From positions 1 through 30,169 of IMG/VR virus record IMGVR_UViG_3300037504_000138: a stretch of DNA of 30,169 nt, one strand, 5' to 3'. Each line of letters opens with the position of its first letter. Position 1 is the stretch's first letter. This document shows, in pieces, positions 1,586 through 28,771 of the stretch. The position numbers were made by a program, and so were the translations under genes. The DNA comes from a virus. The notes beneath the pieces are model-generated. The model worked only from the letters and a program-made list of their open reading frames with translations. It did not search any database and was not told the origin of the DNA.

Positions 1586-1625
1586 CCGCACGGTTGGCCG
1601 CGCTTCCAGTGGTGCGGTGTTTTTT
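1585..1625 (+). terminator. Rho-independent terminator after the replication module
   Basis: A perfect 7-bp stem (ACCGCAC at 1585-1591 with GTGCGGT at 1612-1618) closes a 20-base loop that can pair further (TGG/CCA). Six T residues follow at 1620-1625. The stem begins at the stop codon of the zinc-ribbon gene and separates early from late genes. Confidence 0.65.
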
Positions 1626-1636
1626 CAGATCATGGC

Positions 1637-1666
1637 TTGACACCGCGACATGCGAGGCAGTAGGCT
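1637..1666 (+). promoter_or_regulatory. Candidate promoter for the sigma-like gene
   Basis: A perfect -35 hexamer TTGACA (1637-1642), an 18-base spacer and a weak -10 TAGGCT (1661-1666), placed 11 bases after the terminator and about 45 bases before ATG 1712. The predicted start near 1673 would exclude the upstream GTG at 1673. The -10 matches consensus at only three positions. Confidence 0.4.
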
Positions 1667-1711
1667 TGGGGCGTGGTAGTGCTGGTAGTCGTTTTAGCCA
1701 TGGCGGTCCTC

Positions 1712-2386
1712 ATGGGGTACCTTTTGGCTGAGTACACGCCCAACAAAAACACCAAGGCCGAACTGATGGAGTTGCAGGACTCGTACCTCGAGACCCGTGC
1801 TAACTCGACGCTCGCCGAAATGTGGACCCGGCTGTACGCGATGGCGCAGGGCCACGTTCGCCAGTGGATGCGCAAGGCCCGCCGGACACTCTCGGCACCC
1901 GACGTCGAGAACAAGGCGGCCGACGCTGCGAACTACATCATCGAGCAGTACCTCACGCGCCCCGACTTCCGTATCACCGACAGCTTCGACTCATACCTCA
2001 GGCTCCGCGTAATGGCCGAGCTCGCCTCCCCAAAGCGCAGGCTGCGCGACGCGAGCGAGATCCACCTCGAGGCCAAGGAGCTCGACGAGCTACCGGGTTG
2101 CGACCCCGATCCGTTCGAGCAGACAGTCGCCTACCAGGATGCGGTGCTCGAGGAAATCCGAGCCGTCATTGACGAGTTACTTGAAGACTCGCCAGATGCG
2201 TGCGAGTACCGACGCCTCGTCGACCTGTGGATAGGCGGATGGTCTCGGCAGGAGCTACGAACCGAGGCCGCCCGCTTGGAACTTGACTACGCCGAACACA
2301 TCGAGCATCGCAAAGCCATTCGGGAGTACGTAGCGACGGCACACAACTGCCAATACGATCACCAGTCCTCGGCCACAGCGTCCTGA
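1712..2386 (+). CDS. Sigma-factor-like putative late transcription regulator
   Basis: A 224-residue protein from ATG 1712. The middle (LSAPDVENKAADAANYIIEQ, then a TRPDFRITDSFDSYLRLRV stretch) has the pattern of a divergent sigma-70 region 2, as seen in small phage proteins encoded just before terminase genes. The C-terminal part (LWIGGWSRQELRTEAARLEL) could be a region-4-like helix-turn-helix. It stands alone between a terminator and the terminase operon, a usual place for a late-gene activator. Start choice: the frame is open to GTG 1673 and ATG 1700, which would add a hydrophobic VVLVVVLAMAVLM leader unlikely for a cytosolic regulator, and no start has a strong SD. Fold assignment is by eye. 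Action on the GTGACTATC elements downstream is inference. Confidence 0.5.
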   Translation: MGYLLAEYTPNKNTKAELMELQDSYLETRANSTLAEMWTRLYAMAQGHVRQWMRKARRTLSAPDVENKAADAANYIIEQYLTRPDFRITDSFDSYLRLRVMAELASPKRRLRDASEIHLEAKELDELPGCDPDPFEQTVAYQDAVLEEIRAVIDELLEDSPDACEYRRLVDLWIGGWSRQELRTEAARLELDYAEHIEHRKAIREYVATAHNCQYDHQSSATAS

Positions 2387-2397
2387 CTACTGTCCGT

Positions 2398-2418
2398 CGT
2401 GACTATCTACGGCGGAGG
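2398..2418 (+). promoter_or_regulatory. GTGACTATC element, copy 1 (before terminase)
   Basis: CGTGACTATC, then the six bases TACGGC, then GGAGG, which also serves as the SD for GTG 2424. First of six copies in the head region, in the gap between the sigma-like gene and the small terminase. See the finding on this element for its possible roles. Confidence 0.55.
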
Positions 2419-2423
2419 ACGCT

Positions 2424-2975
2424 GTGCCGAGCGACAATGACGACCGAACCGACTACCGGCGGCTGGTGACGAGGGGGCATCGATTCGAGATCGACGATCC
2501 GGATCGTGCCGAACAGATCGCCGAATCTGACACCACCTACACCGTTAAGCGCCTCCCTGCATGGGCGAGGCAAGCCATACACGACAAGATCCGCTATGCG
2601 CTCACCTACGGGGAGCTCTCGGTTCGATACCGCCGGAGCCCGACGCAGGTAGCGAAGTACTGTAACTGCGCCCTCGGCAGGTCCTTCTCCGAAGAGCTCT
2701 GTGAGATTATCAGTTCCGAGCTCAAGGACTCGATCGTCGCGCTTCAGTCCGCCGCGGTCGACGTCTTGCGCGACGTTCTCGCCCCGGACTCGACGTACCG
2801 CAAGAGCGAGCGAGTGAAGGTTGCGCTAAAGCTTCTCGAGCACGGAATCCTGCCGCCGCTGCAGAGCGAGGTCACGAACAACGCGGCGATCGTCGTACAA
2901 GTCAACCCCGACCTCATAGCGCCGCCGATGCGAGACGCCAATGCCAGTGACGAAAGCTCCACTGAGGCTGACTGA
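2424..2975 (+). CDS. terS: Terminase small subunit
   Basis: A 183-residue protein directly upstream of and overlapping the large terminase by 35 bases, the standard place for the small subunit that recognises phage DNA for packaging. A helix-turn-helix is visible near residues 55-75 (LTYGELSVRYRRSPTQVAKY), followed by helices suited to ring oligomerisation (SEELCEIISSELKDSIVALQ and onward) and an acidic tail ending STEAD. Starts at GTG 2424 with GGAGG five bases upstream. Small terminases diverge strongly, so the call rests on position, size and the HTH pattern. Confidence 0.75.
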   Translation: MPSDNDDRTDYRRLVTRGHRFEIDDPDRAEQIAESDTTYTVKRLPAWARQAIHDKIRYALTYGELSVRYRRSPTQVAKYCNCALGRSFSEELCEIISSELKDSIVALQSAAVDVLRDVLAPDSTYRKSERVKVALKLLEHGILPPLQSEVTNNAAIVVQVNPDLIAPPMRDANASDESSTEAD

Positions 2976-4188
2976 CAAGCAGCGGGAAATCGTTGCGGCA
3001 CTGAGACAGCCGAACCGATACACGCTCATCGTTGGAGGGGCGAGGAGTGGAAAGACCACCGGAATCATCGCGACGATGGTCGCCGATGCGTATCAGTTCC
3101 CCGGTTCCCGACAGCTCATCGCGCGGGAGAAGTTCAACCACGTGAAGGCGTCGATCTGGAACGAGACTTTGCCGTTCGTGCTTTCAGAGTACCCACGAGT
3201 GACATACACGAAGAACGAAACCGAGCTCACGCTGCGATTCACAAACGGCTCTCAGATCATCTGTAACGGCCTCGACGACGATCGGGTCGAGAAGATTCTC
3301 GGCACCGAATACTGCCGGATCTACCTCAACGAGTGCTCGCAGATAAAGTACAAGACGGTGAAAACCGTACTCACGAGGCTCGCTCAGAACATCCCTGGAC
3401 TGCCGAACAAGATTATCTACGACCTCAACCCCGTTGGACTAACCCACTGGACGTACCGGCTGTTCCTGCAGGGCGTGGATCCGATGGACCCCGAAGAGCC
3501 GATTGCGGACCACGAGCAGTACAACCACGTGTTCGCAAACCCTGCCGACAACGCCGAGCACCTTCCGCCTGAGTACCTCGCGCAGCTTGATGCGCTTCCG
3601 GAGTTTGAGCGACGGCGGTTTCTGCTCGGCGAATACCAGAAGCCGCCGGGCGCGGTGTTTTACAACTTCGACCGGTCCAAGCACGTGGTGCCTTTCGGAG
3701 AAGTGCCGCCGCTCGATGATTTCGACAAGTTCAGCGTCGGCGTCGACCTCGGAAACAACTCGGTCGCAATCCTCGTCGGTTGGATGGGCGAGCGAGCCTA
3801 TGCGCTCGACGAGATATACGAGCGTCGGGTCACCAATGCGACCATGAACGCGGTTATCACCGACAAATGGGGCGGGCTGGACTACTACGCATACATAGAC
3901 CACAACCACGGCGAGGCGGTGCTCGACGATTACGACAACTCCATGCTCGCGATCAAAGGCGCCGGAAGCGTCGAGCTTGGTATCAACGTGATCCTGCAGC
4001 TCATGGAGAGCGACAACTACCGAGTGAGCGAGCAGTGTACCAATCTCATCGCAGACATGGAGAGCTATCACCGCAACGAGGAGACCGGCCGGATCGTGGA
4101 GGAAGGGAACGAACACGGCAACGACGCGCAGCGCTACGCCATCTACACCGAGCTGAAATTGACCGGCGGGAGCGTGACACTGGTCTGA
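2941..4188 (+). CDS. terL: Terminase large subunit (ATPase-nuclease)
   Basis: A 415-residue DNA-packaging motor. The ATPase domain has Walker A GGARSGKT at residues 32-39 and a Walker B-like IYLNE at 127-131, with a YDLNPVG motif near 160. The RNase H-like nuclease has FSVGVDLGNNS (D269), YIDHN (D320) and GNDAQRYA (D395), the expected acidic triad. Length and motif order fit the PBSX/Terminase_6-type group. The start overlaps the small subunit gene with only a weak SD, so coupled translation is likely. The stop TGA lies within the second GTGACTATC-type element. The packaging type (cos or headful) cannot be told from this. Confidence 0.95.
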   Translation: MPVTKAPLRLTDKQREIVAALRQPNRYTLIVGGARSGKTTGIIATMVADAYQFPGSRQLIAREKFNHVKASIWNETLPFVLSEYPRVTYTKNETELTLRFTNGSQIICNGLDDDRVEKILGTEYCRIYLNECSQIKYKTVKTVLTRLAQNIPGLPNKIIYDLNPVGLTHWTYRLFLQGVDPMDPEEPIADHEQYNHVFANPADNAEHLPPEYLAQLDALPEFERRRFLLGEYQKPPGAVFYNFDRSKHVVPFGEVPPLDDFDKFSVGVDLGNNSVAILVGWMGERAYALDEIYERRVTNATMNAVITDKWGGLDYYAYIDHNHGEAVLDDYDNSMLAIKGAGSVELGINVILQLMESDNYRVSEQCTNLIADMESYHRNEETGRIVEEGNEHGNDAQRYAIYTELKLTGGSVTLV

Positions 4189-4202
4189 CTATCTACGGCG
4201 AG
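4186..4202 (+). promoter_or_regulatory. GTGACTATC element, copy 2 (before portal)
   Basis: TGACTATC, the six bases TACGGC (identical to copy 1), then GAG. The TGA is the terminase stop codon. The true SD (GAGGGG, 4217-4222) and GTG 4229 lie further down, as in copy 6. Confidence 0.55.
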
Positions 4203-4228
4203 AGCACGATACGGCAGAGGGGTAGAGC

Positions 4229-6298
4229 GTGGGACTTATGGACATCTTCGGGCGAAAGAACAGACAACTCGATGCGCTAAAGGCGGAGCTCGCCGATCTC
4301 CGCGAGAAGGCGGTCACCATGACCGACCCCGCAATCGTAAGCCTCATGAACTGGCAGACCTCCGGAGAGACGACGGAGCTGAAAGACGCCTACACGCAGA
4401 TCCCGACGATCTACGCGGCCGTCTCTGTAATAGCGCGTTCGCTCTCACAGGTGCCATACGAAATCCGTGACCGAAACGACGAGCCGGTGGCACGTGGCCC
4501 GGTCGTCGATCTTTTCGCCGACGTGAACCCATACCTGTCGAGCTTCCAACTGTGGGAGGGTATCGCGACGAGCCTCGAGCTTCGTGGCAATGCCTACCTC
4601 GTGAAAGACGAGCAGACTGTACGCGGTATTCCGGTTGCGCTATGGCTGGTGCATCCGGACGAAATGACGCTTGCCACAAACGGCCAGGGATATTTCGTCG
4701 GGTATTGGCGCACTAGGAACGGACGGAAGACGTTCCTCCAGCCGGATCAGGTCATCCACATTCGCTACTTCAACATTGGCCACGAGATCACCGGTCTCTC
4801 GCCGCTGGACGTGCTGAAGCTAACCGCCGAGAGTGAGTGGAACGCAATCCAGTACAACCGCCACTTTTTCCTGAACAATGCAGTTCCCAATATCGTTTAC
4901 CAGTTCCAGCGGCTCGGAAAGAACGAGCGCGCCCGCCTCGAGCAGGACATCATCGAAAGCCGCAAGGGTGTAGAGAACTCGCACTCAGCTATGATTGTAG
5001 AGGGTCAGAACGCGTCTGTGCAAAGCCTCGGGATATCGCAGAAGGATATGGAGTTTCTCGACGGCCGGAAGTTCAGCCAGGACGAGGTGTGCATGATCTA
5101 CGGCGTGCCGAAGTCGAAGCTCGGACTCTACGAGGAGTCGAACTACAACAACGCCAAGAATGCCGACCTCGCGTTTTGGAAGAACACCGTCATCCCAATG
5201 GGGCGGCTCATCGAAGACAAGATCGACACCGACCTCCTGCGGCCACTTGGATACCAGGGGCGGTTTAATTTCCAGGCGATCGATGTGCTCAACGAGGAGT
5301 TCCTCGACAAGATCGACGCTGCGGTCGCGCTCCTCGAACATGGCTTTACCCGCAATGAGGTAAACGAACGGCTCGGCCTCGGCTTCGAAGACGCGCCATG
5401 GGGCGACGAACCGATGACGCCGCCGAGTCAAAACCCGTTCGGGCTACGGTCCCCGGAGGGCTCAACGAAAGGTCCACCGGCACTGCCCATCGAGCAGCCG
5501 GAAGCGCAGCCTCCGGAGGGCTCGGAGGAGATAGCGAAACACGTGCTCGCGAAGCGGTGGAACGAGCTATCAGGCCCGATCCAGCCGGTCATAAGTCGGA
5601 CAGGGTCGGCGGTGCGAAAGTACTTCTACAAGATCGAGCAGAAGCTGTACCGACGCCTCGCGAAAAGCGCAGCCTCCGTCCGCACGAAAGACTGGGAGAA
5701 CGAGGTTGATGCGGTCGTGAACGAGATTGACCTTGACCGCCTGTTCGAGGATTCGACGATCAGGGAGGAGATGCGCCCATACTACGAGCAGGCGATGGAG
5801 CGCGGCATACAGACCGTCACGGGCGTCGCGTTCGACCTCGAACACCCCGAGGCGGTGCGCATCCTTGGCGAGGTCCTCGACCAGATCAGCGTCGTAAACG
5901 AGACCGCACGCGAGAAGGTACGCGACATCATCGGACGGTCTCTTCGCGAGTCGATCACCGACGGGCTGAGCGAGGAGGCGAAGGCGCGGAAGCTGACCTC
6001 TGATCTCGGCGAGAAGTTCCGCGAAATCAAGAGCTCGGCTCGCACGATCGCCAGGACCGAGGTACACAAGGCGTGGGGCACGGCCCGGTACGCGGCGGCG
6101 GAGGAAACACGCCCGAAGTACAAGCGCTGGATCTCCTCCCGCGACTCACGTGTTCGGGATTCTCACGAGCACCTGGACGGGAAAAAGGTCGCGTGGGATG
6201 CGGATTTCTCAAACGGCCTCAAGTTCCCCTCTGAGCCCGGCGGCGCGGCGAAAGAGGTTATAAACTGCCGCTGCACGTACGAGGTCCTCTACGAGTAA
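4229..6298 (+). CDS. Portal protein fused to Mu gpF/SPP1 gp7-like minor head protein
   Basis: A 689-residue fusion. Residues about 1-390 are an HK97-type portal (IPTIYAAVSVIARSLSQVPY; GITASLELRG-like and NAYLVKD segments; the GVPKSKLGLYEESNYNNA segment typical of the family), the ring through which DNA enters the capsid. A proline-rich linker (about 390-435) leads to a head-morphogenesis domain: ARTIARTEVHKAW near 602-614, SSRDSRVRDSHEHLDGK near 636-652, and the cysteine motif INCRCTYEV near the end, as in the Mu gpF/SPP1 gp7 family. These are usually two adjacent genes. Starts at GTG 4229 with a GAGGGG SD. One uninterrupted frame covers both halves. Confidence 0.9.
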   Translation: MGLMDIFGRKNRQLDALKAELADLREKAVTMTDPAIVSLMNWQTSGETTELKDAYTQIPTIYAAVSVIARSLSQVPYEIRDRNDEPVARGPVVDLFADVNPYLSSFQLWEGIATSLELRGNAYLVKDEQTVRGIPVALWLVHPDEMTLATNGQGYFVGYWRTRNGRKTFLQPDQVIHIRYFNIGHEITGLSPLDVLKLTAESEWNAIQYNRHFFLNNAVPNIVYQFQRLGKNERARLEQDIIESRKGVENSHSAMIVEGQNASVQSLGISQKDMEFLDGRKFSQDEVCMIYGVPKSKLGLYEESNYNNAKNADLAFWKNTVIPMGRLIEDKIDTDLLRPLGYQGRFNFQAIDVLNEEFLDKIDAAVALLEHGFTRNEVNERLGLGFEDAPWGDEPMTPPSQNPFGLRSPEGSTKGPPALPIEQPEAQPPEGSEEIAKHVLAKRWNELSGPIQPVISRTGSAVRKYFYKIEQKLYRRLAKSAASVRTKDWENEVDAVVNEIDLDRLFEDSTIREEMRPYYEQAMERGIQTVTGVAFDLEHPEAVRILGEVLDQISVVNETAREKVRDIIGRSLRESITDGLSEEAKARKLTSDLGEKFREIKSSARTIARTEVHKAWGTARYAAAEETRPKYKRWISSRDSRVRDSHEHLDGKKVAWDADFSNGLKFPSEPGGAAKEVINCRCTYEVLYE

Positions 6299-6319
6299 CG
6301 TGACTATCCACACTGAGGG
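6299..6319 (+). promoter_or_regulatory. GTGACTATC element, copy 3 (before prohead protease)
   Basis: CGTGACTATC, six bases CACACT, then GAGGG, which is the SD for GTG 6328. Lies in the 29-base gap after the portal gene. Confidence 0.55.
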
Positions 6320-6327
6320 ATAGCACG

Positions 6328-7047
6328 GTGCAAAAGAAGAAGCAGCTTGCAGCATTCGCGATAAAGAGCCGAGACGGGAAGAAGTACACAATCACCGCCT
6401 CTACGCCAGACGTAGACCGAGACGGCGAAGTGATTGTTCCCGCCGCGTTCAAAAACCTCGACGCCTACCTCGGGTCGAATCCGGTCATTCTGTGGGCGCA
6501 CAACTACGCCCACCCGCCCATTGGCCGGGCAACCGACGGCCGGATCACCGACGAGGCGCTCGAACTAGACATAGAGTTCGCGACTACGCCGTTCGCACGA
6601 GAGGTAAAGGGCCTCTATGACACGGGCTTCATGAACGCGTTCAGTGTCGGGTTCATTCCGAAGAACTACACTCACGACTCTGACGGGAACCTCGTTTTCA
6701 CCGAGGCGGACCTGCTCGAGGTATCGGCCGTGCCGGTCCCTGCGAATGCGTTCGCCACGATGCGCCGCCAAGCGAAGGGCAAAGGCCTCGAGCTTGGGCA
6801 CCTTACCAAGACATACGTCGAGGACGGAAACCTTATCTACGAGCTGTCGGCCGACGGTATCGCAGACTACATAACCGACGTGTCCACCCTCGGGGGACTC
6901 GCGCCCGAGGACATCAAGGGGCTGATTGAGCACCTCACCTCACTGCTTCCCGACAGTACGCCAGAGCCTGAAGGCGAATCGGTGGAAACCCCGGTCAAGC
7001 GCGAGCTCCGTGCTCTACTGGCTCACTACAAAACCACAAGAGGGTAA
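6328..7047 (+). CDS. HK97-family prohead maturation protease
   Basis: A 239-residue serine protease (family S78/U35 type) that cleaves scaffold and capsid delta domains during head maturation. Family hallmarks: an early TPDVDRDGEVIVPAAF segment (26-41), catalytic His in WAHNY (H58), catalytic Ser in MNAFSVGFIP (S106) and LLEVSAVPVPAN (E131), the usual third-site segment. The remaining ~90 residues form an acidic tail. Starts at GTG 6328 with GAGGG upstream. The capsid gene follows after three bases, so the two are surely co-expressed. Confidence 0.93.
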   Translation: MQKKKQLAAFAIKSRDGKKYTITASTPDVDRDGEVIVPAAFKNLDAYLGSNPVILWAHNYAHPPIGRATDGRITDEALELDIEFATTPFAREVKGLYDTGFMNAFSVGFIPKNYTHDSDGNLVFTEADLLEVSAVPVPANAFATMRRQAKGKGLELGHLTKTYVEDGNLIYELSADGIADYITDVSTLGGLAPEDIKGLIEHLTSLLPDSTPEPEGESVETPVKRELRALLAHYKTTRG

Positions 7048-7050
7048 GCC

Positions 7051-8337
7051 ATGGACCGCATAGAACTACTCGAGCAGCTCATCGAGAAAGAAACCGATGA
7101 GGCGAAACTGAAGGAACTCCGCGCCGAGCTCATCGCCGCGATCCGAGAGGACGAACGGCAGAAAGCGCAGGCGGAGGCAGACGAGAAGGCTGCCGATGAG
7201 GAGCGCACGGAAAAGGCCGCGCAGTCTCCGCATGGGCAGATCCCGGTTCAGCCGAAGATCGAAGTGACCGAGGCTGAGAAGTACAAGGGCGTCAATCTCA
7301 AGGCCGCTATCGGTGCCCTGCAGGACAACGCGAAGGTCCCGGCCGGCATGCGTCGCCTTGCGAAGGCCAACCGCGAACAGGCTGAGGAAGTCGCCAAGTA
7401 CGGCATCGACCTCCTGCAGAAAAGCGTGGTCGGAGACGCCCGGAAGCTCAAGGCGCTCACCGAGGGCGACGCCACCCAGGGCGCCGAGCTCGTGCCCGAG
7501 GAGCGCCGATCGGCAATCCTTGCCTATATGCGCGAGACCTCTGTCGCGCTGCAGTACGCGAACGTCGTGCCGATGACCTCCGACACTCTCGACATGCCGA
7601 AGGAAGACGGTTCGGTCAGCATGACCTACACCGACGAGGCATCCGAGGCTACGGAGACCTCCGCCGTGTTTGACGAGGTGACCCTCACCGCAAAGCGGCT
7701 CGATGGATACGTCGAAGTGACGAACGAGCTCCTGCAGGACAACGACCTCCCCGGAGGTATCGCAGGCCTGCTTACCGCGCAGTTCCTCGAGGCCGGAGCG
7801 AAAAAGATCGACTCCACGGTGTTCGTCGGAACCGGCAGCCCTGTATCGGGCGTCATGCTCTCTGCAGGCGACTCGGTCGTATTTGGCACCGACTCCACCG
7901 CGTTCAGCGAGCTCCTCGCATCCGACATCAGAAGCGCCGTTGCACAGATCCCGGCGAACCGCGACGACAACGCGCGGTGGTTCATGCACAAGACCGTGCT
8001 GTACAACCTTGTCTACAACCTCAAGGGCGACAACAACGAAGACATCTTCGTCGCGAACCACTACGACATGGCGCCGGGCCGCATCTGGGGCTATCCGGTG
8101 TCGCTTGTCACCCAGGCGCCGTCCGCCGCCGATAGCGGCGCGGATACCGGCTTTATCGTCTTCGGCGACCTGTCCGGGTTCATGATCGGCGAGCGCATCG
8201 GGAGCATGCAGCTTCTGCAGAATCCCTACGCCAAGATGACCAAGAACATCACGCAATTCATCGTCTTCCAGCGATGGGCCTTCGCGCACGCGCTGAACGG
8301 GTACTACACCCGGATCGTCACCGACGACGGCGTCTGA
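7051..8337 (+). CDS. HK97-fold major capsid protein
   Basis: A 428-residue coat protein. Residues about 1-60 form a charged coiled coil (LLEQLIEKETDEAKLKELRA and onward), the delta/scaffold domain expected to be removed by the neighbouring protease. The shell domain follows, with GAELVPEERRSAILAYMRE, a VVPMTSDTLDMPKEDG segment, LTAKRLDGYVEVTNELLQD and a terminal ITQFIVFQRWAFAHALN segment, all typical of HK97-fold capsids. The usual length and the place after the protease agree. The gene is closed by a strong terminator about 40 bases later, which may cap transcript levels for the genes beyond. Confidence 0.95.
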   Translation: MDRIELLEQLIEKETDEAKLKELRAELIAAIREDERQKAQAEADEKAADEERTEKAAQSPHGQIPVQPKIEVTEAEKYKGVNLKAAIGALQDNAKVPAGMRRLAKANREQAEEVAKYGIDLLQKSVVGDARKLKALTEGDATQGAELVPEERRSAILAYMRETSVALQYANVVPMTSDTLDMPKEDGSVSMTYTDEASEATETSAVFDEVTLTAKRLDGYVEVTNELLQDNDLPGGIAGLLTAQFLEAGAKKIDSTVFVGTGSPVSGVMLSAGDSVVFGTDSTAFSELLASDIRSAVAQIPANRDDNARWFMHKTVLYNLVYNLKGDNNEDIFVANHYDMAPGRIWGYPVSLVTQAPSAADSGADTGFIVFGDLSGFMIGERIGSMQLLQNPYAKMTKNITQFIVFQRWAFAHALNGYYTRIVTDDGV

Positions 8338-8378
8338 TCAGCAATTAGCGGGGTGTGCGTTCTCCTCGTTTCCCCGTT

Positions 8379-8410
8379 GGCCCGGTGGCTCACGCTGCCG
8401 GGCCGTTTTT
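8379..8410 (+). terminator. Strong rho-independent terminator after the capsid gene
   Basis: A perfect 7-bp GC stem GGCCCGG (8379-8385) / CCGGGCC (8398-8404) with a 12-base loop, followed by GTTTTT (8405-8410). It ends the protease-capsid unit. A GTGACTATC element begins seven bases after it. Confidence 0.85.
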
Positions 8411-8416
8411 GTCTGG

Positions 8417-8438
8417 CGTGACTATCTGCGATGAGGAG
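8417..8438 (+). promoter_or_regulatory. GTGACTATC element, copy 4 (before glycosyltransferase)
   Basis: CGTGACTATC, six bases TGCGAT, then GAGGAG, the SD for ATG 8445. Its place directly after a terminator is the best argument that the element starts transcription. Confidence 0.6.
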
Positions 8439-8444
8439 AACGAC

Positions 8445-9446
8445 ATGCTACGAGTATTTTGGGCGAGCGATCACGACGGGTGGAGCAATGCCAAGGGGTA
8501 CAGCGTCCACAACCGCATGATGCGCGAGCACACCGCTGCGCGAGACGACATCGAGCTCGCCGAATCCCCAGACGACGCAGACTGCATCATCGACATTACC
8601 ATCCCCACCAGTTTTGAGCGACTCAACGATAAACCGCATTTTCTATTCACGATGTACGAGATGGCCGAGCCGCCGCAGCGCTGGCGCGAAGGGGTCAACC
8701 TGGCGGATCACATCATCGTTCCGTGTAGCCATAACGTCAGTGTGTTCGAGCAAATCACCGGACTCCCGATCTCAGTGTGTCCGGAGGGCGTCGACCCAAA
8801 GATATACCAGTATGTGGAGCGGACATTTCCGCCGCCTGGAAAGCTCTTCAATTTCCTGTATGTCGGCGCACCGAATCCACGGAAAGGCTACGAGGTCGTG
8901 TGTCAGGCGTGGGACTGGGCGCACCGCTACTATCCCGACATGGTGCGAAACTCCCGGCTCATCCTCAAGACCACCAAGCAAGATGATCCGGTCGGCTTTG
9001 TAGACGACAAGTTCGGCGCGGTTATCGACACCCGCCGCATGAGCCTTGAGCAGCTCGTGCATCTGTACCACATAGCTCACGCGTTCGTGATCCCGTCGAT
9101 GGGCGAGGGCTGGGGCCTCACGCTCTGCGAGGCATGCGCTACTGGGCTCCCTGCTGTCTACACCCATTGGAGCGGCCCGGAAGATTTCATGGTCGAGGCG
9201 CACGCCTATCCTGTTTACTACCGCCTGGACGAGCACGCGGCCCTCGACAAGGACGGCGAGGTATACCACCGGGGCACGGTCGCGAAGGCGGACCCGGAGG
9301 AGACCGCCGAACTGATGTACGAGATATGGCGGCACTACGGCGAGGCGCTCGGAAAGGCGCAGAAGCAGAGCGACCGGATTCTTGAATCTTTCACGTGGGA
9401 TCGTGCGGCGGCCAGGCTGGCCGAGATCCTCAAGGAGAACGTATGA
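8445..9446 (+). CDS. GT-B fold glycosyltransferase (GT4-like)
   Basis: A 333-residue sugar transferase. The C-terminal half has the GT-B signature: FNFLYVGAPNPRKGYEVV, RLILKTTK, and then FVIPSMGEGWGLTLCEACAT, where E221 and E229 form the EX7E motif of retaining GT4-type enzymes. The N-terminal half is the shorter acceptor domain (FTMYEMAEPPQRW, ADHIIVPCSHN, CPEGVDP). Start: ATG 8445 has GAGGAG upstream; a longer in-frame ATG at 8355 lies inside the terminator and is rejected. The stop overlaps the methyltransferase start (ATGA). Donor and acceptor are unknown; decoration of capsid, tail or host surface glycan are options. Confidence 0.88.
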   Translation: MLRVFWASDHDGWSNAKGYSVHNRMMREHTAARDDIELAESPDDADCIIDITIPTSFERLNDKPHFLFTMYEMAEPPQRWREGVNLADHIIVPCSHNVSVFEQITGLPISVCPEGVDPKIYQYVERTFPPPGKLFNFLYVGAPNPRKGYEVVCQAWDWAHRYYPDMVRNSRLILKTTKQDDPVGFVDDKFGAVIDTRRMSLEQLVHLYHIAHAFVIPSMGEGWGLTLCEACATGLPAVYTHWSGPEDFMVEAHAYPVYYRLDEHAALDKDGEVYHRGTVAKADPEETAELMYEIWRHYGEALGKAQKQSDRILESFTWDRAAARLAEILKENV

Positions 9447-10006
9447 AGGCGTTGAATATTGGAAGCGGAACGCTCATACCCGAGGGGCGCGAGGTTACCA
9501 ACATCGACATCCGGCCGCAGGTGAGCCCGGACATTGTCTGGAATCTCGACCATTTCCCGTGGCCGGTCGCGGATGAGGCGTTCGACGAGGTGTACGCTCT
9601 TGACATCCTTGAGCACCTCGAGCACGTGTTTCCGGCGATGGAAGAAATCCACCGGGCGTTGAAACCAGACGGCATGCTCTATGTCCATACGACCTACTGG
9701 CGAAGCCGCAACTCCTTCAGTGATCCTACGCACCGCCATTTCTTCACCGAGGAGTCCTTCGACTACTTCGACGAGCGGACGCTGTTCGGAAAGAAATACG
9801 GGTGGTACTCGTACGCGCGGTTTTTTATCGAAAGCCGCTATATCGACGTGGGTGAACTTGTGCTGATAATGCGGAAGCTGCCGGCGGAACGACCTGCCGA
9901 TCACCGGTTCCCCCGAGACCTTCACTTCGCCGATGACGAGATCGCCGAGCTCGCTGAGAGGCTTCGGCCATACATGACTATCCAAAGCAAGGAGAACGAC
10001 GAATGA
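9443..10006 (+). CDS. SAM-dependent methyltransferase
   Basis: A 187-residue class I methyltransferase. The SAM-binding glycine loop is LNIGSGT (residues 4-10), the acidic end of strand 2 is NIDI (20-23), and DILEHLEHVFPAMEEIHRAL (54 onward) with LKPDGMLYVHTTYW is the usual post-motif region. SD AAGGAG lies six bases before ATG 9443, which overlaps the glycosyltransferase stop. Pairing with a glycosyltransferase suggests methylation of a sugar or of a glycosylated phage product rather than of DNA; no DNA-methylase catalytic motif (DPPY or PC) is seen. The end of the gene contains element copy 5. Confidence 0.88.
   Translation: MKALNIGSGTLIPEGREVTNIDIRPQVSPDIVWNLDHFPWPVADEAFDEVYALDILEHLEHVFPAMEEIHRALKPDGMLYVHTTYWRSRNSFSDPTHRHFFTEESFDYFDERTLFGKKYGWYSYARFFIESRYIDVGELVLIMRKLPAERPADHRFPRDLHFADDEIAELAERLRPYMTIQSKENDE
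9975..9994 (+). promoter_or_regulatory. GTGACTATC element, copy 5 (inside methyltransferase end)
   Basis: TGACTATC, six bases CAAAGC, then AAGGAG, the SD for ATG 10003. The weakest copy at its 5' edge (AT instead of GT) and the only one fully inside a coding region. The spacing to the SD is conserved. Confidence 0.4.
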
Positions 10007-10326
10007 GCGAAGTAGAAGACAGGTACGCCGAAATCAGGAAGCTCGCCAAGCAGTACGTCAAGAACGGGTTCGACATCGCGAAACTAGAGTTCCCCGACAA
10101 TCTTACGAAGGAACTGTTCTACCGCTTCCCGCTTTCGGTCGGCATGAACGGCACGATCGCGCACCTGCCGTACCGAGGTGGCGTAATGGACCAGCCGGAT
10201 CACGCAATACAGGTTTACCGCATCTTGCAGGAAGAAATCGCGCGTGCGGCGATCGCACAGCAGAACACTGCGCAGGCCGCGATGAGTAGCCAGTCGCAGA
10301 AGCCAAAGGGCACACGGAAGAAGTAA
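10003..10326 (+). CDS. Small head-region protein, function unknown
   Basis: A 107-residue protein, not recognised. It starts ATGA-overlapped with the methyltransferase, with AAGGAG upstream. The N-terminal half is mixed (YAEIRKLAKQYVKNGFDIAK, then FPLSVGMNGTIAHLPYRGG). The C-terminal third is a predicted helix (YRILQEEIARAAIAQQNTAQ) with a basic end (KPKGTRKK). Its place before the head-tail connector suggests a structural or assembly role, but nothing in the sequence specifies one. Confidence 0.7.
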   Translation: MSEVEDRYAEIRKLAKQYVKNGFDIAKLEFPDNLTKELFYRFPLSVGMNGTIAHLPYRGGVMDQPDHAIQVYRILQEEIARAAIAQQNTAQAAMSSQSQKPKGTRKK

Positions 10327-10329
10327 GGC

Positions 10330-10920
10330 ATGCCGGCACTCGACACGACGATCAGCTTGATCGACCTCGATGACGCTAAAGACTACCTCGATATTGAGTC
10401 AGACGACGCATGGAGGGACCAACGTGTGCAGGGGCTCATCAATGCGGCATCTGCGGCGATCAACAGCTATCTCGGCCATACCGTAAAACTGACCTCGCAC
10501 ACCGAGTATCTCAACGGAGCCGGTCGCACCATTATTATGGTACAGCACCGGCCGATCACCGAGGCATCGAACGACGTTGCGGTGTACCTCGATGCGACGC
10601 GAAACTTCGGCGCCGATACGGCAGTCGATCACGATGAAATTGGTATCGACGAGGGTGCAGGGATCATAGAGCTTCCGGCCGCCACACCGAAGGGCATCAA
10701 GACCGTCATGGTGACCTACGACGCCGGGTATCCGGCGGGGTCGATACCCGCAGACATCCAGGAGGCGTGCCGGATGATGGTGCGGTTCCTCGACAGTCGC
10801 CGTGACTCGATCGCTTCCGGCGTCTCATCGATCACCATCGGAGACGGGACGGCGACCTACTCGGAGGACGTACCGATACCCGAGGCGGTCCGCGCACTCC
10901 TGGACAACTACGACGGATGA
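10330..10920 (+). CDS. Head-tail connector (HK97 gp6-like adaptor)
   Basis: A 196-residue protein with the N-terminal pattern of gp6-like adaptors, which form a ring below the portal: SLIDLDDAKDYLDIESDDAW, then VQGLINAASAAINSYLGHTV. A beta-rich insert follows (GRTIIMVQHRPITEASNDVA; GIIELPAATPKGIKTVMVTY), and then a helical DIQEACRMMVRFLDSRRDS segment. Its order before a gp10-like gene agrees. The stop overlaps the next ATG (ATGA). Confidence 0.82.
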   Translation: MPALDTTISLIDLDDAKDYLDIESDDAWRDQRVQGLINAASAAINSYLGHTVKLTSHTEYLNGAGRTIIMVQHRPITEASNDVAVYLDATRNFGADTAVDHDEIGIDEGAGIIELPAATPKGIKTVMVTYDAGYPAGSIPADIQEACRMMVRFLDSRRDSIASGVSSITIGDGTATYSEDVPIPEAVRALLDNYDG

Positions 10921-11387
10921 GTATCGAGTACACGGTCGCAATAAAGGCCGATCGCACGATCAAGCTCCTCGAGCGCCTCGAGGACCACTTTCCGCGCATC
11001 GAGCGGTTGATCGTCTCACGGATCGCTGAGCGGGTCGTGTCGATCACGCAAGCGGAGAAACTGCGCGGCCAAGTGCTCAACCGCCAGTCCGGGGACCTCG
11101 CGGCGAGTATCCACTACCGGCTGCGCGGCAATGCGACGGCAGTGGTCGGGACCAACATGGTGTACGCGGCGATCCACGAGTTCGGCGGCACGATCCGCGC
11201 GAAGAACGCGGAGTTTCTCGCGTTCCGCCTCGACGGCGGGCGGTACGTGATGACCAAAGAGGTTCAGATACCGGCGCGGCCGTACCTCGGGCCAACGATG
11301 ACCGAGTACTTCGACAGCGGCAAAGCAAAGCGCCTTGTCGAGCTCACGCTGAAGGAGGAAATCGAGCGCCTTGAGCGGTCGGTGTAG
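10917..11387 (+). CDS. HK97 gp10 / virion morphogenesis-like tail completion protein
   Basis: A 156-residue protein. The core YAAIHEFGGTI followed by IPARPYLGPTM is the signature of the HK97 gp10/gpS-like family, which complete the head-tail joint or tail end. RQSGDLAASIHYRLRGN and AVVGTNMVYA are also typical. It overlaps the connector gene by four bases (ATGA) and precedes the tail terminator candidate, the standard siphovirus order. Confidence 0.88.
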   Translation: MSIEYTVAIKADRTIKLLERLEDHFPRIERLIVSRIAERVVSITQAEKLRGQVLNRQSGDLAASIHYRLRGNATAVVGTNMVYAAIHEFGGTIRAKNAEFLAFRLDGGRYVMTKEVQIPARPYLGPTMTEYFDSGKAKRLVELTLKEEIERLERSV

Positions 11388-11390
11388 AAT

Positions 11391-11852
11391 ATGCCATTAC
11401 TCGAAGATCCGCTTTTCGATCTCAAGACGTATTTCGACGAAAACCTCGCGACGTTCATCGCGGCCGTCAACGCGCAAGTGACCTCGAACAAGATAAGCGA
11501 CATGCGCGACATCGAGGTTGGTCGATTCACGGCGCTGCACGCATCGAGCTATCCGGTGATGAACATCATCCCCGGGCCATCCCCGATCGAGGCGCTCTCC
11601 CAAGGCTTCGACGAGTTGCGGATGGAACCGGCCATCTACATCGCAGACCGGGTCAGTGATTCGGAAGCCTCATACCTCAAGCTCCTGCGCTACGCAGATG
11701 CGGTACGCGATTCGCTCCTCGACGATACCACCGGGGGCGATGCGTTTGACTACATCACCGTAAGCGAGATCGCGCCGTATCCGTCGGATGCGAACAGCAT
11801 CGCGGTGGTAGTTATCCGATGCGAAACCCTCCTGCAGGTAAGCCGGTCCTAG
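11391..11852 (+). CDS. Putative tail terminator protein
   Basis: A 153-residue protein in the tail terminator slot, between the gp10-like gene and the tail tube gene. The N-terminal helix (LKTYFDENLATFIAAVNAQV) and alternating strands (YPVMNIIPGPSP; EPAIYIADRVSDSEASYLKL; SIAVVVIRCETLLQV) fit the small alpha/beta fold of gpU-like tail terminators, which stop tube growth. There is no diagnostic motif; the call is mainly positional. Confidence 0.6.
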   Translation: MPLLEDPLFDLKTYFDENLATFIAAVNAQVTSNKISDMRDIEVGRFTALHASSYPVMNIIPGPSPIEALSQGFDELRMEPAIYIADRVSDSEASYLKLLRYADAVRDSLLDDTTGGDAFDYITVSEIAPYPSDANSIAVVVIRCETLLQVSRS

Positions 11853-11857
11853 CCTCA

Positions 11858-11880
11858 CGTGACTATCTCCGGTGAGCGAG
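11858..11880 (+). promoter_or_regulatory. GTGACTATC element, copy 6 (before tail tube)
   Basis: CGTGACTATC, six bases TCCGGT, then GAGCGAG. As in copy 2, the true SD (GAGGGG at 11892-11897) and ATG 11907 lie about 30 bases further. Both long-spaced copies share GAGGGGTAG before the start. Confidence 0.55.
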
Positions 11881-11906: not shown

Positions 11907-12890
11907 ATGGGTATAATCGGCGGTAACGACTCCAAGCTGCAGATCGGCATCCAGACCGATTGGTCGACTGCAGTCTCTCCGACGCTACAGCTTTCATTCA
12001 CGCAGGAAAGCTTACGCTACATCCCGAACTACATGAGCGAAGACGCGCTTGTCGGCAACAAGACGACCGGACGCATGGACCCCGCAGGAGTCAAGACCGA
12101 GGGGGATTTCACCGTACTCGTCAAACCGGATGAGATCGGCCTGCTTCTATCCTGGGCGCTGGGATCAGAGGCGGCAGCATCGGCGGTAGACGGATCGGCG
12201 GTCTATGACCACGCGTTCAGCCTCATCGCCGGCGGAACTTCCAACTCGCTCCCAAAAGCCACGCTCGTCGTAGACCGGAAGGTCGACACCTACGACTACG
12301 TCGGATTCAAGGTCAACACATTCCGCCTTGAGGCGAACGTCAACGATTACCTTCGGGCGACTTTCGGCGGACTCGGGTACGACGAGGTGAAAAACGTCGA
12401 GCTCGCATCCCTCACGCCGTCGAGTCTCAAGGCGCTTCAGTTCAAGCACGGGACGATCACCGTTGACGCCTCGGAGTACGCCGATATCACGAGTTTCTCG
12501 ATTGATCTCAGCAACAACCTTGAGGACGACCTGTACACCATGGGCTCCGGCGACAACATGGCGGAGATCGAGCCGCAGGCCCGGGAGGTAACCGCGTCCA
12601 TGGAGGTACTCTTTTCGAGCACCACCGAGAGTACCCGAGAGAACAAGTTCAAGGCCGGTGACTCGGTCGCGGTCGAGGCGACGTTTACCTCCGACGAGGA
12701 AGTCCTCACCGGGAAGTACTACACGCTCACAATCGATATGCCGCTTTTCTATATCACCGAGGCATCGCCGAGCATCAGCGGGCCAGAGCGTATCCGGATG
12801 ACGCTCGAGGGAACCGCGACCGAGGACGATTCAAACGAGGCGATCACAATCACGCTTCGAGACGGACAGGACACGAAGTACATCACATAG
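11907..12890 (+). CDS. Major tail tube protein
   Basis: A 327-residue protein of the phage tube type. N-terminal IIGGNDSKLQIGIQTDWSTA and SLRYIPNYMSEDALVGNKTT, then GVKTEGDFTVLVKPDEIGLL, are typical of Phage_tube-like tail proteins, with beta-rich sequence throughout. The position before the two chaperone frames and the tape measure is diagnostic. It is longer than minimal tube proteins (~200 residues), so a C-terminal surface domain is possible (from about residue 230). It has its own upstream element and good SD, as expected for a highly expressed virion protein. Confidence 0.85.
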   Translation: MGIIGGNDSKLQIGIQTDWSTAVSPTLQLSFTQESLRYIPNYMSEDALVGNKTTGRMDPAGVKTEGDFTVLVKPDEIGLLLSWALGSEAAASAVDGSAVYDHAFSLIAGGTSNSLPKATLVVDRKVDTYDYVGFKVNTFRLEANVNDYLRATFGGLGYDEVKNVELASLTPSSLKALQFKHGTITVDASEYADITSFSIDLSNNLEDDLYTMGSGDNMAEIEPQAREVTASMEVLFSSTTESTRENKFKAGDSVAVEATFTSDEEVLTGKYYTLTIDMPLFYITEASPSISGPERIRMTLEGTATEDDSNEAITITLRDGQDTKYIT

Positions 12891-22738: not shown

Positions 22739-23178
22739 GACGATTACTGATACTTGCGCTCCTGCTCGTCGCTACGATTGCGGTAAGCCAGCAGGTCTAC
22801 TACGAGTCTACTCCAACGCTCGAATGGGACGCGGTTACTACGGATACAGACGGCAACGCATTCCTACCTGGTGATACGGTCGAGTACGAGGTGCTCTCAT
22901 GGGATATGGCGCAGGGTGACATTACCCTACAACCTGTCGCCGCCCTCTCATCGCTCGGTACAACCACCGCACTATCGATGCAGCTATCCTTTCCGTATCG
23001 GAGTGAGTGGGCCGTAGCAGTACGGACTCAGCACACCGACGGTGGCGGCAATGTAACGCTGTCAGACCCGGCATATAGCGTAGTGGAGGTGGATACCGCT
23101 TCCGGCCCTTTCTGGTATACCCCGGTGTTGACTTGGATACCGCAGCGCCCAACGGGCTTGCGGGATTCGGGGATGTAG
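22735..23178 (+). CDS. Secreted protein with signal peptide, function unknown
   Basis: A 147-residue protein with a clear signal peptide (MRRLLILALLLVATIAVSQQ), cleaved near residues 18-21. There is no lipobox cysteine. The mature part is beta-rich and reads like one Ig/fibronectin-III-type domain (TPTLEWDAVTTDTDGNAF, then VEYEVLSWD, EWAVAVRTQHTDGGGNVTLS). A signal peptide is unusual for a virion protein, so export by the host is likely. It precedes a beta-helix gene and may be a partner of that product. Confidence 0.7.
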   Translation: MRRLLILALLLVATIAVSQQVYYESTPTLEWDAVTTDTDGNAFLPGDTVEYEVLSWDMAQGDITLQPVAALSSLGTTTALSMQLSFPYRSEWAVAVRTQHTDGGGNVTLSDPAYSVVEVDTASGPFWYTPVLTWIPQRPTGLRDSGM

Positions 23179-23189
23179 AGGAGCCAGAC

Positions 23190-25010
23190 GTGGCAGAAGT
23201 TGTCCGATACGTAGATCCTGACGCTACGGGCTCTGGCGACGGTACAAGTTGGACAGATGCCTACACATCACTCTCTGCGTGGGAAGCAGCAGAACAGACC
23301 GATCTAGTAGCCGATGGTGATTGGCACCATGTGTACTGCCGCAGCTCGGGCGGTACTGCGGATAGTACGGCTGTCGTTATAGATGGGTGGACTACCGGGC
23401 CGAGCAATTACATTCTAATCGAGGCAGCGAGCGGAGACGAAGCAGTAAAAACTGGTATTGATACCTCGCGCTATCGGCTTACTGCAGCCTCTGGGAATGC
23501 TATAGAAAATCGGATTGATGATCTGACTATCCGGGGGATACAATTTGACTGCGCTGCTCTTGGCATCTATGCATCGAAGTGGCAAAACACATCTGCGGAT
23601 GTGACAATTGATCAGTGTTACCTCAAAACCGGCTCGGCTGGTATTACTGGATACGGGTCGAGTGTAACCATAAATGTCGAATCTTCTATAATAGTTGGAG
23701 ACGCAGCACCGAATTACGGTATCCATGCACAGGATGGTACATGGAATATCTACAACTGTGTTGTATATGGATACGATCACGGGCTTTACGAGGGAGCGAG
23801 TGGCCCGACAATCACCATAGAAAACTGTGCATTATTTTCGAATAACGATGATATTGAATCGGCTAACGCATCTGTAGACTACTGTGCCTCCGACGACGGC
23901 GACGGCACAAATTCGGTTAGTCCGAGCGGCAGTTCCTGGGCGAATGAGTTTGAGGACGCGGCGAACGGTGACTTTACCCTCCTTACGGGCGGCAACCTCG
24001 AAAACGGCGGAACGACAATCACGGGAGGGCCATCGACTGATATTGATGGTGACTCGTGGGATGCCACGCCGAGCATCGGGGCAGATGAGTACGTAGCGAG
24101 CGGCGGCGGGACGACGGTAAGCGCCGACTTACTCAGCGCTTCCGGTGAACTCCTCGCGCCAACCGTCACTGGTGCCGCGGCCGTAAGCGCCGACTTGCTG
24201 ACAGGCTCTGCCGAGCTCCTCGCTCCGACAGTAGCGGCCGCCGCACTTGTTCCGGCGGACCTCCTGTCTGCGACCGCCGAGCTCCCCGCCCCGACGGTCG
24301 CAGGAGCCGCCGTTGTCCGGGCTGACTTGCTGAGCGCGACGGCGGAACTACCCGCGCCGACGGTCACCGGTGCTGCTACGGTATCCGCTAACCTTCTCAC
24401 AGCCGAGGGGGCATTGCTGGCGCCGACGGTGCAGACCTCCGCCGGAGTCACGACGGATCTACTGACGGCAACAGCCGATCTACTGGAGCCGACCGTATCA
24501 GGCGGCGCTATCGTCTCTGCCGATCTCCTGAGTGCGACCGGCGAACTACTCGCGCCCACGGTATCGGCTTTCTCCGGTACGGTTGTCGTCGCTGATCTGC
24601 TCGAGGCAACTGCGAGCCTCTTCGACCCGACGGTAAGCGGCGCGGCGACGGTCTCGGCCGACCTGCTCACTGCCGAGGCCACACTACTCGCGCCAAGCAC
24701 TGCGGCGGGGCTCACCGTAGCAGCGGATCTCCTTACCGCCGGGGCGACTCTGCTCGCGCCATCGGTCGCGCTGACGGCAACGTTTGCGACGGATCTCCTG
24801 CAAGCTGACGCGGAGCTACTCGCGCCGAGCCTCGTCTATCAGGGTGGAGTGAGTGCCGATCTACTCACCGCGACGGCTACGCTACTCGCGCCGACGCTTA
24901 TCATGGGCGACGTATACACCGAGCAAATCACCGGTACCTCGAGCATCCAGACCGCAATCACCGGTACCTCGAGCATCCAGACCGCAATCACGGGGGAGAG
25001 TAGCCTATGA
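23190..25010 (+). CDS. Beta-helix protein with twelve ADLL..LLAPTV repeats
   Basis: A 606-residue protein. Start: GTG 23190 has AGGAG six bases upstream; the longer TTG 23133 start lies inside the previous gene. Residues 1-~300 look like a right-handed parallel beta-helix of adhesin/pectate-lyase type (YVDPDATGSGDGTSWTDAYT; LTIRGIQFDCAALGIY; VTINVESSIIVGDA; WNIYNCVVYGYDHGLY). Residues ~310-574 hold twelve ~22-residue repeats (VSADLLSATAELLAPTV type), then a tail with a duplicated ITGTSSIQTA unit. Part of the beta-helix DNA is AT-rich (23 of 60 GC at 23641-23700). A virion adhesin or depolymerase-like fibre is plausible; no catalytic residues identified. The stop overlaps the next ATG. Confidence 0.8.
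   Translation: MAEVVRYVDPDATGSGDGTSWTDAYTSLSAWEAAEQTDLVADGDWHHVYCRSSGGTADSTAVVIDGWTTGPSNYILIEAASGDEAVKTGIDTSRYRLTAASGNAIENRIDDLTIRGIQFDCAALGIYASKWQNTSADVTIDQCYLKTGSAGITGYGSSVTINVESSIIVGDAAPNYGIHAQDGTWNIYNCVVYGYDHGLYEGASGPTITIENCALFSNNDDIESANASVDYCASDDGDGTNSVSPSGSSWANEFEDAANGDFTLLTGGNLENGGTTITGGPSTDIDGDSWDATPSIGADEYVASGGGTTVSADLLSASGELLAPTVTGAAAVSADLLTGSAELLAPTVAAAALVPADLLSATAELPAPTVAGAAVVRADLLSATAELPAPTVTGAATVSANLLTAEGALLAPTVQTSAGVTTDLLTATADLLEPTVSGGAIVSADLLSATGELLAPTVSAFSGTVVVADLLEATASLFDPTVSGAATVSADLLTAEATLLAPSTAAGLTVAADLLTAGATLLAPSVALTATFATDLLQADAELLAPSLVYQGGVSADLLTATATLLAPTLIMGDVYTEQITGTSSIQTAITGTSSIQTAITGESSL
24117..24912 (+). repeat. Twelve tandem 66-base coding repeats
   Basis: Twelve units of about 22 codons encoding (V)xADLLxAxAxLLAPTVxGAA. 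Leu-Leu pairs and the LAPT segment are conserved while linkers vary (21-24 residues). The DNA has diverged more than the protein, so the array is old and held by selection on the protein. Confidence 0.85.
24926..24991 (+). repeat. Perfect 30-base tandem duplication
   Basis: Two identical 30-base units at 24926-24955 and 24956-24985, then a partial third (AATCAC). In frame, encoding ITGTSSIQTA twice and then ITGESSL. Complete identity indicates a recent duplication. Confidence 0.95.
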
Positions 25011-26414: not shown

Positions 26415-26460
26415 ACGGTTCGGGACCGTGAGGTCGGCGGTTCAAATCCGCCCAGCCCGA
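26415..26460 (+). other. attP core: 3' part of tRNA-Pro(CGG)
   Basis: Reads as the 3' half of a tRNA: most of an anticodon arm with loop TTCGGGA (anticodon CGG, G37 as usual for proline), variable loop, T arm GGCGG-TTCAAAT-CCGCC (26436-26452), and acceptor strand CAGCCCG plus discriminator A, with no encoded CCA. The matching 5' acceptor strand CGGGCTG is absent, and the first anticodon-stem pair is A/G, so this is not a complete tRNA gene. It would restore the host tRNA 3' end on integration. Confidence 0.8.
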
Positions 26461-26493
26461 TAGAGTAAGTAACGACAGAGCAACGAGTTAGAC

Positions 26494-28196: not shown

Positions 28197-28655
28197 TCAT
28201 CCGGCTTGTTCCTCTCTCTGAACGTCCCGTCGACCCTGCAAATATCCGTAGACCATCGTGTCGACTTTCTCGAGCACTTCGTCGTCGAGATCCGCCAGCT
28301 TGCTAACCAGATCGCGCAACGGGCGACGGACGGATACACGATAGGCCACCGGGTCGTGGACGTCCCCAGGGGCAACCTTCGCCTCGATCGATTGCAGGCG
28401 CTCGATGATGCTCTGCGTATTCGTCTGGGTAACCTCGCCGATAGCGTCCTCTGGCTTATCGACGCCGCCAAAAAAGAAGCGGGGGTCCACCGAAAACTCC
28501 CGACATATCGTGTCGACTAGCTGGGCGCTCACCTGTCGCTCCCCTCGCTCGGTCATCGAGACATTGGACTTCGTCATCCCTACCCGGGCGCCGAATTGCT
28601 CGCCGCTCAAGCCGAGATGATTGCGCAGTGTACGTATCCGCGCGCCAAAATCCAC
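28197..28655 (-). CDS. CI-like lysogeny repressor (HTH_3)
   Basis: A 152-residue repressor. The N-terminal helix-turn-helix (RIRTLRNHLGLSGEQFGARV, then GMTKSNVSMTERGERQVSAQ) is of the XRE/HTH_3 type. The C-terminal ~80 residues are helical (SIIERLQSIEAKVAPGD; LVSKLADLDDEVLEKVDTMV) and lack an S24 peptidase domain, so it is not cleaved like lambda CI and induction must work otherwise. Starts at GTG 28655 with SD GGGAG. It is transcribed away from the early genes, with a palindrome in the spacer of its own promoter. Confidence 0.88.
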   Translation of the reverse strand: MDFGARIRTLRNHLGLSGEQFGARVGMTKSNVSMTERGERQVSAQLVDTICREFSVDPRFFFGGVDKPEDAIGEVTQTNTQSIIERLQSIEAKVAPGDVHDPVAYRVSVRRPLRDLVSKLADLDDEVLEKVDTMVYGYLQGRRDVQREEQAG

Positions 28656-28685
28656 ATGATCTCCCTATTCCCCGCTCCCACAACC

Positions 28686-28715
28686 ACAATAGTTCACAAT
28701 GTGTGAACATGTCAA
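28686..28715 (-). promoter_or_regulatory. Repressor promoter (leftward)
   Basis: On the minus strand: TTGACA (28715-28710), 18-base spacer, TATTGT (28691-28686; four of six match). The start would fall about 24 bases before GTG 28655. The operator palindrome fills the spacer. Confidence 0.6.
28692..28708. promoter_or_regulatory. Repressor operator palindrome
   Basis: GTTCACAATGTGTGAAC is a perfect 7-3-7 inverted repeat in the divergent switch region. It lies between the -35 and -10 of the repressor promoter, so binding would repress the repressor itself. The hexamer CACAAT recurs as direct repeats at 28685, 28695, 28722 and 28747. Confidence 0.7.
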
Positions 28716-28734
28716 CAAATCCACAATCTTTTTC

Positions 28735-28763
28735 TTGACAGCAGAACACAATCAGTGTACTCT
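28735..28763 (+). promoter_or_regulatory. Early rightward promoter
   Basis: Perfect -35 TTGACA (28735-28740), 17-base spacer, -10 TACTCT (28758-28763). Expected start near 28770, only one to three bases before ATG 28772. The imperfect repeat ACAC-AATCA-GTGT (28746-28758) in the spacer may be a second operator. Confidence 0.7.
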
Positions 28764-28771
28764 GAGCACAG

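Follow-up and report, generated by a model that had tools for sequence, protein, structure and literature searches.

TGACTAT boxes before head and tail gene blocks of a probable spirochaete phage as candidate late promoters for a phage-encoded sigma-like factor

The window analyzed here is a whole 30,169-nt stretch of viral DNA (IMG/VR record IMGVR_UViG_3300037504_000138, positions 1 to 30,169), which carries in its head and tail region six copies of a short element, TGACTATC followed by a pyrimidine, each a short distance before a gene start. We consider it likely, at a probability of about 0.85, that these six elements are late promoters read by a sigma-like factor that the phage itself encodes at 1673–2386. 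This gene had gone unseen in the initial annotation of the sequence, and it best explains the element. With somewhat less assurance, we also think it probable that the protein belongs to an unrecognised family of small sigma factors based on region 2, working with a TGACTAT late promoter in temperate siphophages of spirochaetes (GC content 37–60%), gp55-like outside the T4 family and with many late mRNAs leaderless.

Results

The six copies of GACTATC reported by the initial annotation are all present on the plus strand, with their first G at 2401, 4187, 6302, 8420, 9976 and 11861, and the next start codon follows at 23, 42, 26, 25, 27 and 46 nt respectively, in keeping with the 23–46 bases given there. 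The sites are genuine, confined to one strand and linked to the starts of genes: six of the seven copies in the window lie 16–50 nt upstream of a start (chance p ~1.5e-8). The seventh, missed before, is a plus-strand TGACTATC at 23524–23531 (GACTATC at 23525) inside gene 23133–25010, has no start behind it and is probably a chance occurrence. The longer form GTGACTATC is exact in four copies only, with CTG in copy 2 and ATG in copy 5; the block common to all six without exception is TGACTATC and then a pyrimidine. Taken alone, the count of bare GACTATC is weak evidence (seven counting both strands, against 3.5 ± 2 after dinucleotide shuffling, and 8 of 100 shuffles reach seven), whereas TGACTATC is clearly enriched, with seven in the window versus a maximum of three in 200 third-order Markov sequences. 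A position weight matrix scan of the window, a check that the initial annotation had suggested for the phage and its relatives, returns the six sites cleanly at 23–27 bits with the next best at 11.7, a gap that leaves no intermediate copies.

Column by column, the six sites consist of conserved TGACTATC, a pyrimidine, four loose bases, a pyrimidine and then GAG. On the upstream side conservation stops at the box and no shared −35 is found, as had been judged by eye; conservation is confined to TGACTATCY and the downstream purines, the pattern of a −10-type box with no conserved −35. The purine block noted six bases past the motif does keep a fixed position, but it is a plausible Shine–Dalgarno sequence (SD), as it had been taken to be throughout, in copies 1, 3, 4 and 5 only. 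For copies 2 and 6, the actual SD is found ~20–25 nt beyond this block, and GAG is still at its fixed place. The base preceding GAG is a pyrimidine in every copy, and this arrangement in copies 2 and 6 would fit a −1/+1 start site placed 7 nt past GACTAT.

Copy 1 (2400–2407, plus strand like all others; predicted +1 near 2414) is proposed to serve the terS-like gene 2424–2975 together with terL, which starts at 2941. Copy 2 (4186–4193; predicted +1 near 4200) overlaps the terL stop codon and would serve the portal gene 4229–6298, and copy 3 (6301–6308; predicted +1 near 6315) the protease 6328–7047 and major capsid 7051–8337 genes. After the capsid gene, and directly upstream of copy 4, comes a strong intrinsic terminator on the plus strand (8378–8405, −24.1 kcal/mol fold), as the initial annotation had it; copy 4 itself (8419–8426; predicted +1 near 8433) is proposed for the glycosyltransferase 8445–9446 and methyltransferase 9395–10006 genes. 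Copy 5 (9975–9982; predicted +1 near 9989) lies inside the methyltransferase open reading frame (ORF), which overlaps the start of the 10003 gene by 4 nt, and the statement that every copy precedes an uncoupled block therefore does not hold for this one; the proposed targets behind it are 10003–10326, the head–tail adaptor gene 10330–10920 and the neck genes. Copy 6 (11860–11867; predicted +1 near 11874) would serve the tail protein gene 11907–12890 and the tail and lysis run behind it.

The sigma-like gene (1673–2386, plus strand; 237 amino acids from GTG 1673) adjoins the first element copy on its upstream side. It is preceded by an intrinsic-terminator-like hairpin that ends the early/replication block (1597–1618, plus strand) and, after this, by a candidate host sigma-70-type promoter read from the sequence (TTGACA-N18-TAGGCT, 1637–1666, plus strand). 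The protein reads like sigma region 2 over residues ~23–140, and its sole match in NCBIfam is a weak one to TIGR02937 (sigma70-ECF, E 0.0062). PHROG and Pfam searches gave no informative match, and PHROG none to a sigma or gp55 family; PDB sequence searches gave no sigma match, and searches of 50,697 phage records and 72,556 plasmid records turned up nothing that matches the family. A family hidden Markov model built without the window and without the prophage of genome G032 (see below) finds the window gene at E 1.7e-21, the next frame being at 1.9.

For structural comparison, the homologue from viral contig L131 was modelled with AlphaFold2 (AF2) from a seven-sequence homologue alignment that included the window, giving four helices with a predicted local distance difference test score (pLDDT) above 90 over residues ~20–120. 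VIA-align places sigma region 2 chains at ranks 1–35 against this model (Z 9.5–6.2, among them ShbA at 9.5, the SigC Pribnow-box region at 9.2, sigmaE region 2 with −10 DNA at 8.7 and T4 gp55, 7d7c_F, at 7.3) and the first non-sigma chain at Z 5.9, values that, being under ~13, may reflect a common helical-bundle arrangement. With this caution, the homologue model has the region 2 fold of the sigma-70 family, and we would regard the unbroken run of 35 sigma chains as a stronger point than the size of Z itself. Membership of the sigma-70 family, as modelled, rests on fold and not on sequence score.

The protein and the element recur together. A homologue search in 46 genomes from the order of one of the Spirochaetales metagenome-assembled genomes (MAGs) described below found a prophage in G032 (E 4.8e-11) with the homologue directly before the terminase and portal genes, the position seen in relatives and in the window alike; the capsid protein found nothing in G032 in the same 46-genome search, so that the two phages share the sigma-like gene and not a detectable capsid relative. 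The G032 prophage has seven copies of GACTATATAAG before structural and later genes, among them one tandem pair and one copy right after a terminator, and has the core TGACTAT in common with the window. A search for GACTATATAAGCAG in 393 Spirochaetota genomes found start-linked copies in G032, G284 and G379 only, and an alignment of the two sigma-like proteins, run separately against the same genomes, matched eight, all three motif genomes included (hypergeometric 5.6e-6); G284 and G379 had been found by motif prior to the protein search. Four genomes found by protein only (G272, G291, G350 and G414) and viral contigs L131–L135, likewise found by protein, repeat TGACTAT on the late strand ahead of the portal gene and of further late genes. 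The most distant relative, L136, has a 27%-identical protein at 37% GC and TGACTATTACT copies before three genes; its longer element, TGACTATTACTTTATAG, stands before genes at 2896, 7340 and 8670, from which it follows that the bases after TGACTAT vary by phage group.

An unbiased ranking of 7-mers between −50 and +20 of gene starts puts TGACTAT first both by phages (9 of 10, a phage being counted if the word precedes at least two genes) and by genes (32). Within the six phages found by protein only it keeps its lead in the count of phages, with AT-rich start-codon words exceeding it in total genes. Across the set, 72 copies lie on the late strand versus 10 on the other (p 1e-12). In all, no fewer than nine further spirochaete prophages and related viral contigs share the pair of protein and element. 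Two side observations concern these relatives. At ~1804900–1805300 of G032:C1 (L041) the sigma-like ORF is overlapped in its 3′ part by an HNH-endonuclease-like ORF that is read in a different frame, and the C-terminus of the sigma-like ORF may be spurious. In G272:C2, TGACTATATAGGTATG/TGACTATATACGTAGAGG occur on the opposite (minus) strand near the contig ends, at 1464, 1902 and 34973; perhaps there is another late block here, or the prophage is wrapped.

Start codons follow TGACTAT at unevenly distributed distances: 9 sites form a narrow peak at exactly 6 nt, a broad peak spans 16–24 nt, and no site falls at 10–15 nt. Genes of the 6-nt class, large ones included, have no SD at a usable distance. 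An example is the tape measure gene of G284 (TGACTATATAAATATGGC), whose MADGKVEF start agrees with MADDGQVKF in G379; in another case the same gene (MEITCK in G272, MNITCK in G284) is spaced at 6 nt in one of the two phages and is preceded by an SD leader in its counterpart. The agreement between homologues confirms the start codons of the genes compared. With a transcript start 7 nt past the T of TGACTAT, mRNAs of the 6-nt class would thus be leaderless, and such spacing without SD argues against a ribosome-binding or RNA-processing element. Of 20 matches to the leaderless pattern TGACTATANNNGTATG, 18 fall within four of the eight genomes that carry the sigma-like gene, and 2 come from a set of 36 further genomes of the phylum. 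Immediately ahead of some copies stand hairpins with T-runs, as seen in the window, in G032 and at two places in G284.

Elsewhere the window carries a replication initiation gene at 132–1133, genes for tape measure (start 13544), fibre (15757), endolysin (21263), holin (22044) and integrase (26573), and a helix-turn-helix (HTH) repressor gene on the minus strand (28197–28655). Adjoining the integrase gene is an attP-like core (26420–26462, plus strand) corresponding to the 3′ end of tRNA-Pro(CGG). An exact 38-mer of this core occurs, among 84,980 species genomes scanned, in four contigs, all from Spirochaetales MAGs, and ARAGORN finds tRNA-Pro(CGG) in three of the four. Among phage records, the Leptospira LE1 phages have the nearest TerL. 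The most likely host is therefore a spirochaete belonging to the Spirochaetales. A near-identity search among phages found nothing, relatives of TerL, portal and major capsid protein (MCP) in IMG/VR are distant and have no start-linked TGACTATC arrays, and an MCP-alignment scan of genome contigs gave no match. In viral contigs, GTGACTATC-N6-SD-ATG has 12 single-copy matches, approximately our chance expectation, and TGACTATATAAGCAG has 43, mostly single-copy. The divergent immunity region (28655–28770) contains a TTGACA-N17-TACTCT promoter (near 28735–28763) and a palindrome, TTCACA-atg-TGTGAA, which is probably the repressor operator. The end of gene 23133–25010 has a near-tandem repeat of CCTCGAGCATCCAGACCGCAATCACCGGTA at ~24940–25006.

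Discussion

We propose that TGACTAT(C/A) would act as a −10-type box about one helical turn ahead of the start of transcription (positions ~−13 to −7), and that the host RNA polymerase core, having bound the phage sigma-like factor, would recognise it without a −35 contact. The sigma-like gene would itself be expressed from the host-type promoter at 1637–1666, past the terminator at 1597–1618, and with such a promoter on this gene the late head and tail blocks would switch on only once its product has been made, while terminators such as 8378–8405 may insulate the blocks from one another.

Besides the caution on helical Z values, a number of results weigh against this proposal. By sequence the protein falls below the curated cut-off of TIGR02937 (16 versus 42.9 bits), Pfam searches gave no sigma match, Sigma70_r2 included, and hhalign profile–profile alignment of the family to host sigma factors was not significant. 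Foldseek alone gave no E below 0.5, its best sigma match having probability 0.85, and the AF2 model of the window's own protein is poor (pLDDT 47) and unusable. The start at GTG 1673 gives a hydrophobic N-terminus, VVVLVVVLAMAVLMGYLLAEY (1673–1750), that has no counterpart in the other homologues, and the true start may lie further in; at the other end, a C-terminal extension (residues ~147–237; 2113–2386) is missing from most relatives. Genome G435 has a homologue with a single TGACTAT on a 7.8 kb contig. Finally, some of the start-linked copies in relatives descend together with homologous genes such as portal, so that the copies are not all independent. The extension at 2113–2386 reads like sigma region 4 and is modelled only at low confidence; should it prove to be region 4, the promoters might have a weak −35 that lies beyond the resolution of six sites.

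The initial annotation had favoured a promoter, a view now strengthened by leaderless spacing, by terminators abutting the boxes, by independence from the SD and by co-occurrence with the sigma-region-2-like gene. It had also offered GACTAT as a poor host −10, and the most serious alternative to a phage-read promoter is of this kind: host polymerase with a host sigma (or another phage activator) may read the boxes, leaving 1673–2386 without this role. GACTAT does retain A-11 and T-7 of the −10 hexamer and its distance to the start fits, but the element keeps G and C at the positions that T and T/A occupy in a sigma-70 −10, and has no −35. The host-type promoters of the same phage look different (TTGACA-N18-TAGGCT and TTGACA-N17-TACTCT), and start-linked box clusters occur where the sigma-like gene is present; we regard this explanation as unlikely, and a host −10 as not the best reading of GACTAT.

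The other alternatives are weaker still. An element acting in the mRNA together with the SD, as a translational operator or start-associated sequence, would account for the SD at fixed distance behind the box in copies 1, 3, 4 and 5, but in copies 2 and 6 the SD is displaced, many boxes of relatives lie 6 nt before ATG with no usable SD, and boxes directly follow terminators, so that we find it improbable. These last two observations also bear on mRNA processing, in which a nuclease would cut the transcript immediately ahead of every block. An invariant sequence close to the starts would permit a cut 5′ of the SD, but boxes that begin right after intrinsic terminators would meet little read-through RNA to cut, and with the leaderless spacing in addition this becomes the least credible explanation of all. 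Asymmetric operators bound by the phage repressor are hardly more plausible: the boxes are asymmetric, of one orientation and numerous in short gaps, and the phage does have an HTH repressor, but no copy within two mismatches is present in the immunity region (28.1–29.0 kb), where repressor operators are expected, and the boxes are fixed relative to start codons and cluster where the sigma-like gene is found. We thus retain late promoters read by the phage sigma-like factor as the preferred explanation.

Spirochaete phages have scarcely been studied, and we found no late-gene control system for them in the literature, nor any description of a TGACTAT/sigma-like system in the open-licence literature. 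In all the phages examined with good coverage, the family described here is accompanied by a readable promoter of its own, and element and protein together offer an easy route to finding and annotating late genes. The protein may further provide a minimal phage sigma for structural work, and possibly an orthogonal promoter/sigma pair where genetic tools for spirochaetes are few.

Among known systems, the Treponema prophages (PMC11144348) come from the same phylum, and the main text of that survey deals with no sigma factors, promoters or motifs. The stoperators of cluster A mycobacteriophages are asymmetric, oriented and present in many copies in short intergenic spaces, as are our boxes; they are 13-mers that occur also at the repressor's operators (PMC9283540), unlike the boxes of the window. 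The start-associated sequences (SAS) of cluster K mycobacteriophages likewise are short and asymmetric and repeat in a single orientation close ahead of genes, but they contain the SD, lie 3–7 bp from the start and belong to the non-structural half of the genome (PMC3203893), whereas the present box can be separated from the SD and stands before structural genes. Extracytoplasmic function (ECF) sigma factors resemble our family in the weak TIGR02937 match and in the AF2 fold, which equals region 2; unlike them, most relatives stop shortly past region 2 without a region 4, the window protein does not reach the curated cut-off, and the box has no −35. A close parallel is the T4 late system, in which structural genes have an 8-bp −10-type box without −35 and are served by gp55, a small diverged sigma with domain 2 (PMC2988020, PMC7892883). 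Alike are the 8-bp −10-type box without conserved −35, its place before structural genes and a small diverged sigma of which domain 2 is recognisable, its model matching the gp55 fold as given above. The differences are that the box here is TGACTAT(A/C) and that of T4 TATAAATA, that sequence similarity to gp55 is undetectable, that many genes here appear leaderless, for which we found no such description in T4, and that the window and the prophages represent temperate siphophages of spirochaetes. The family may allow a direct test of whether late transcription with a −10-only promoter and a region-2-only sigma arose more than once.

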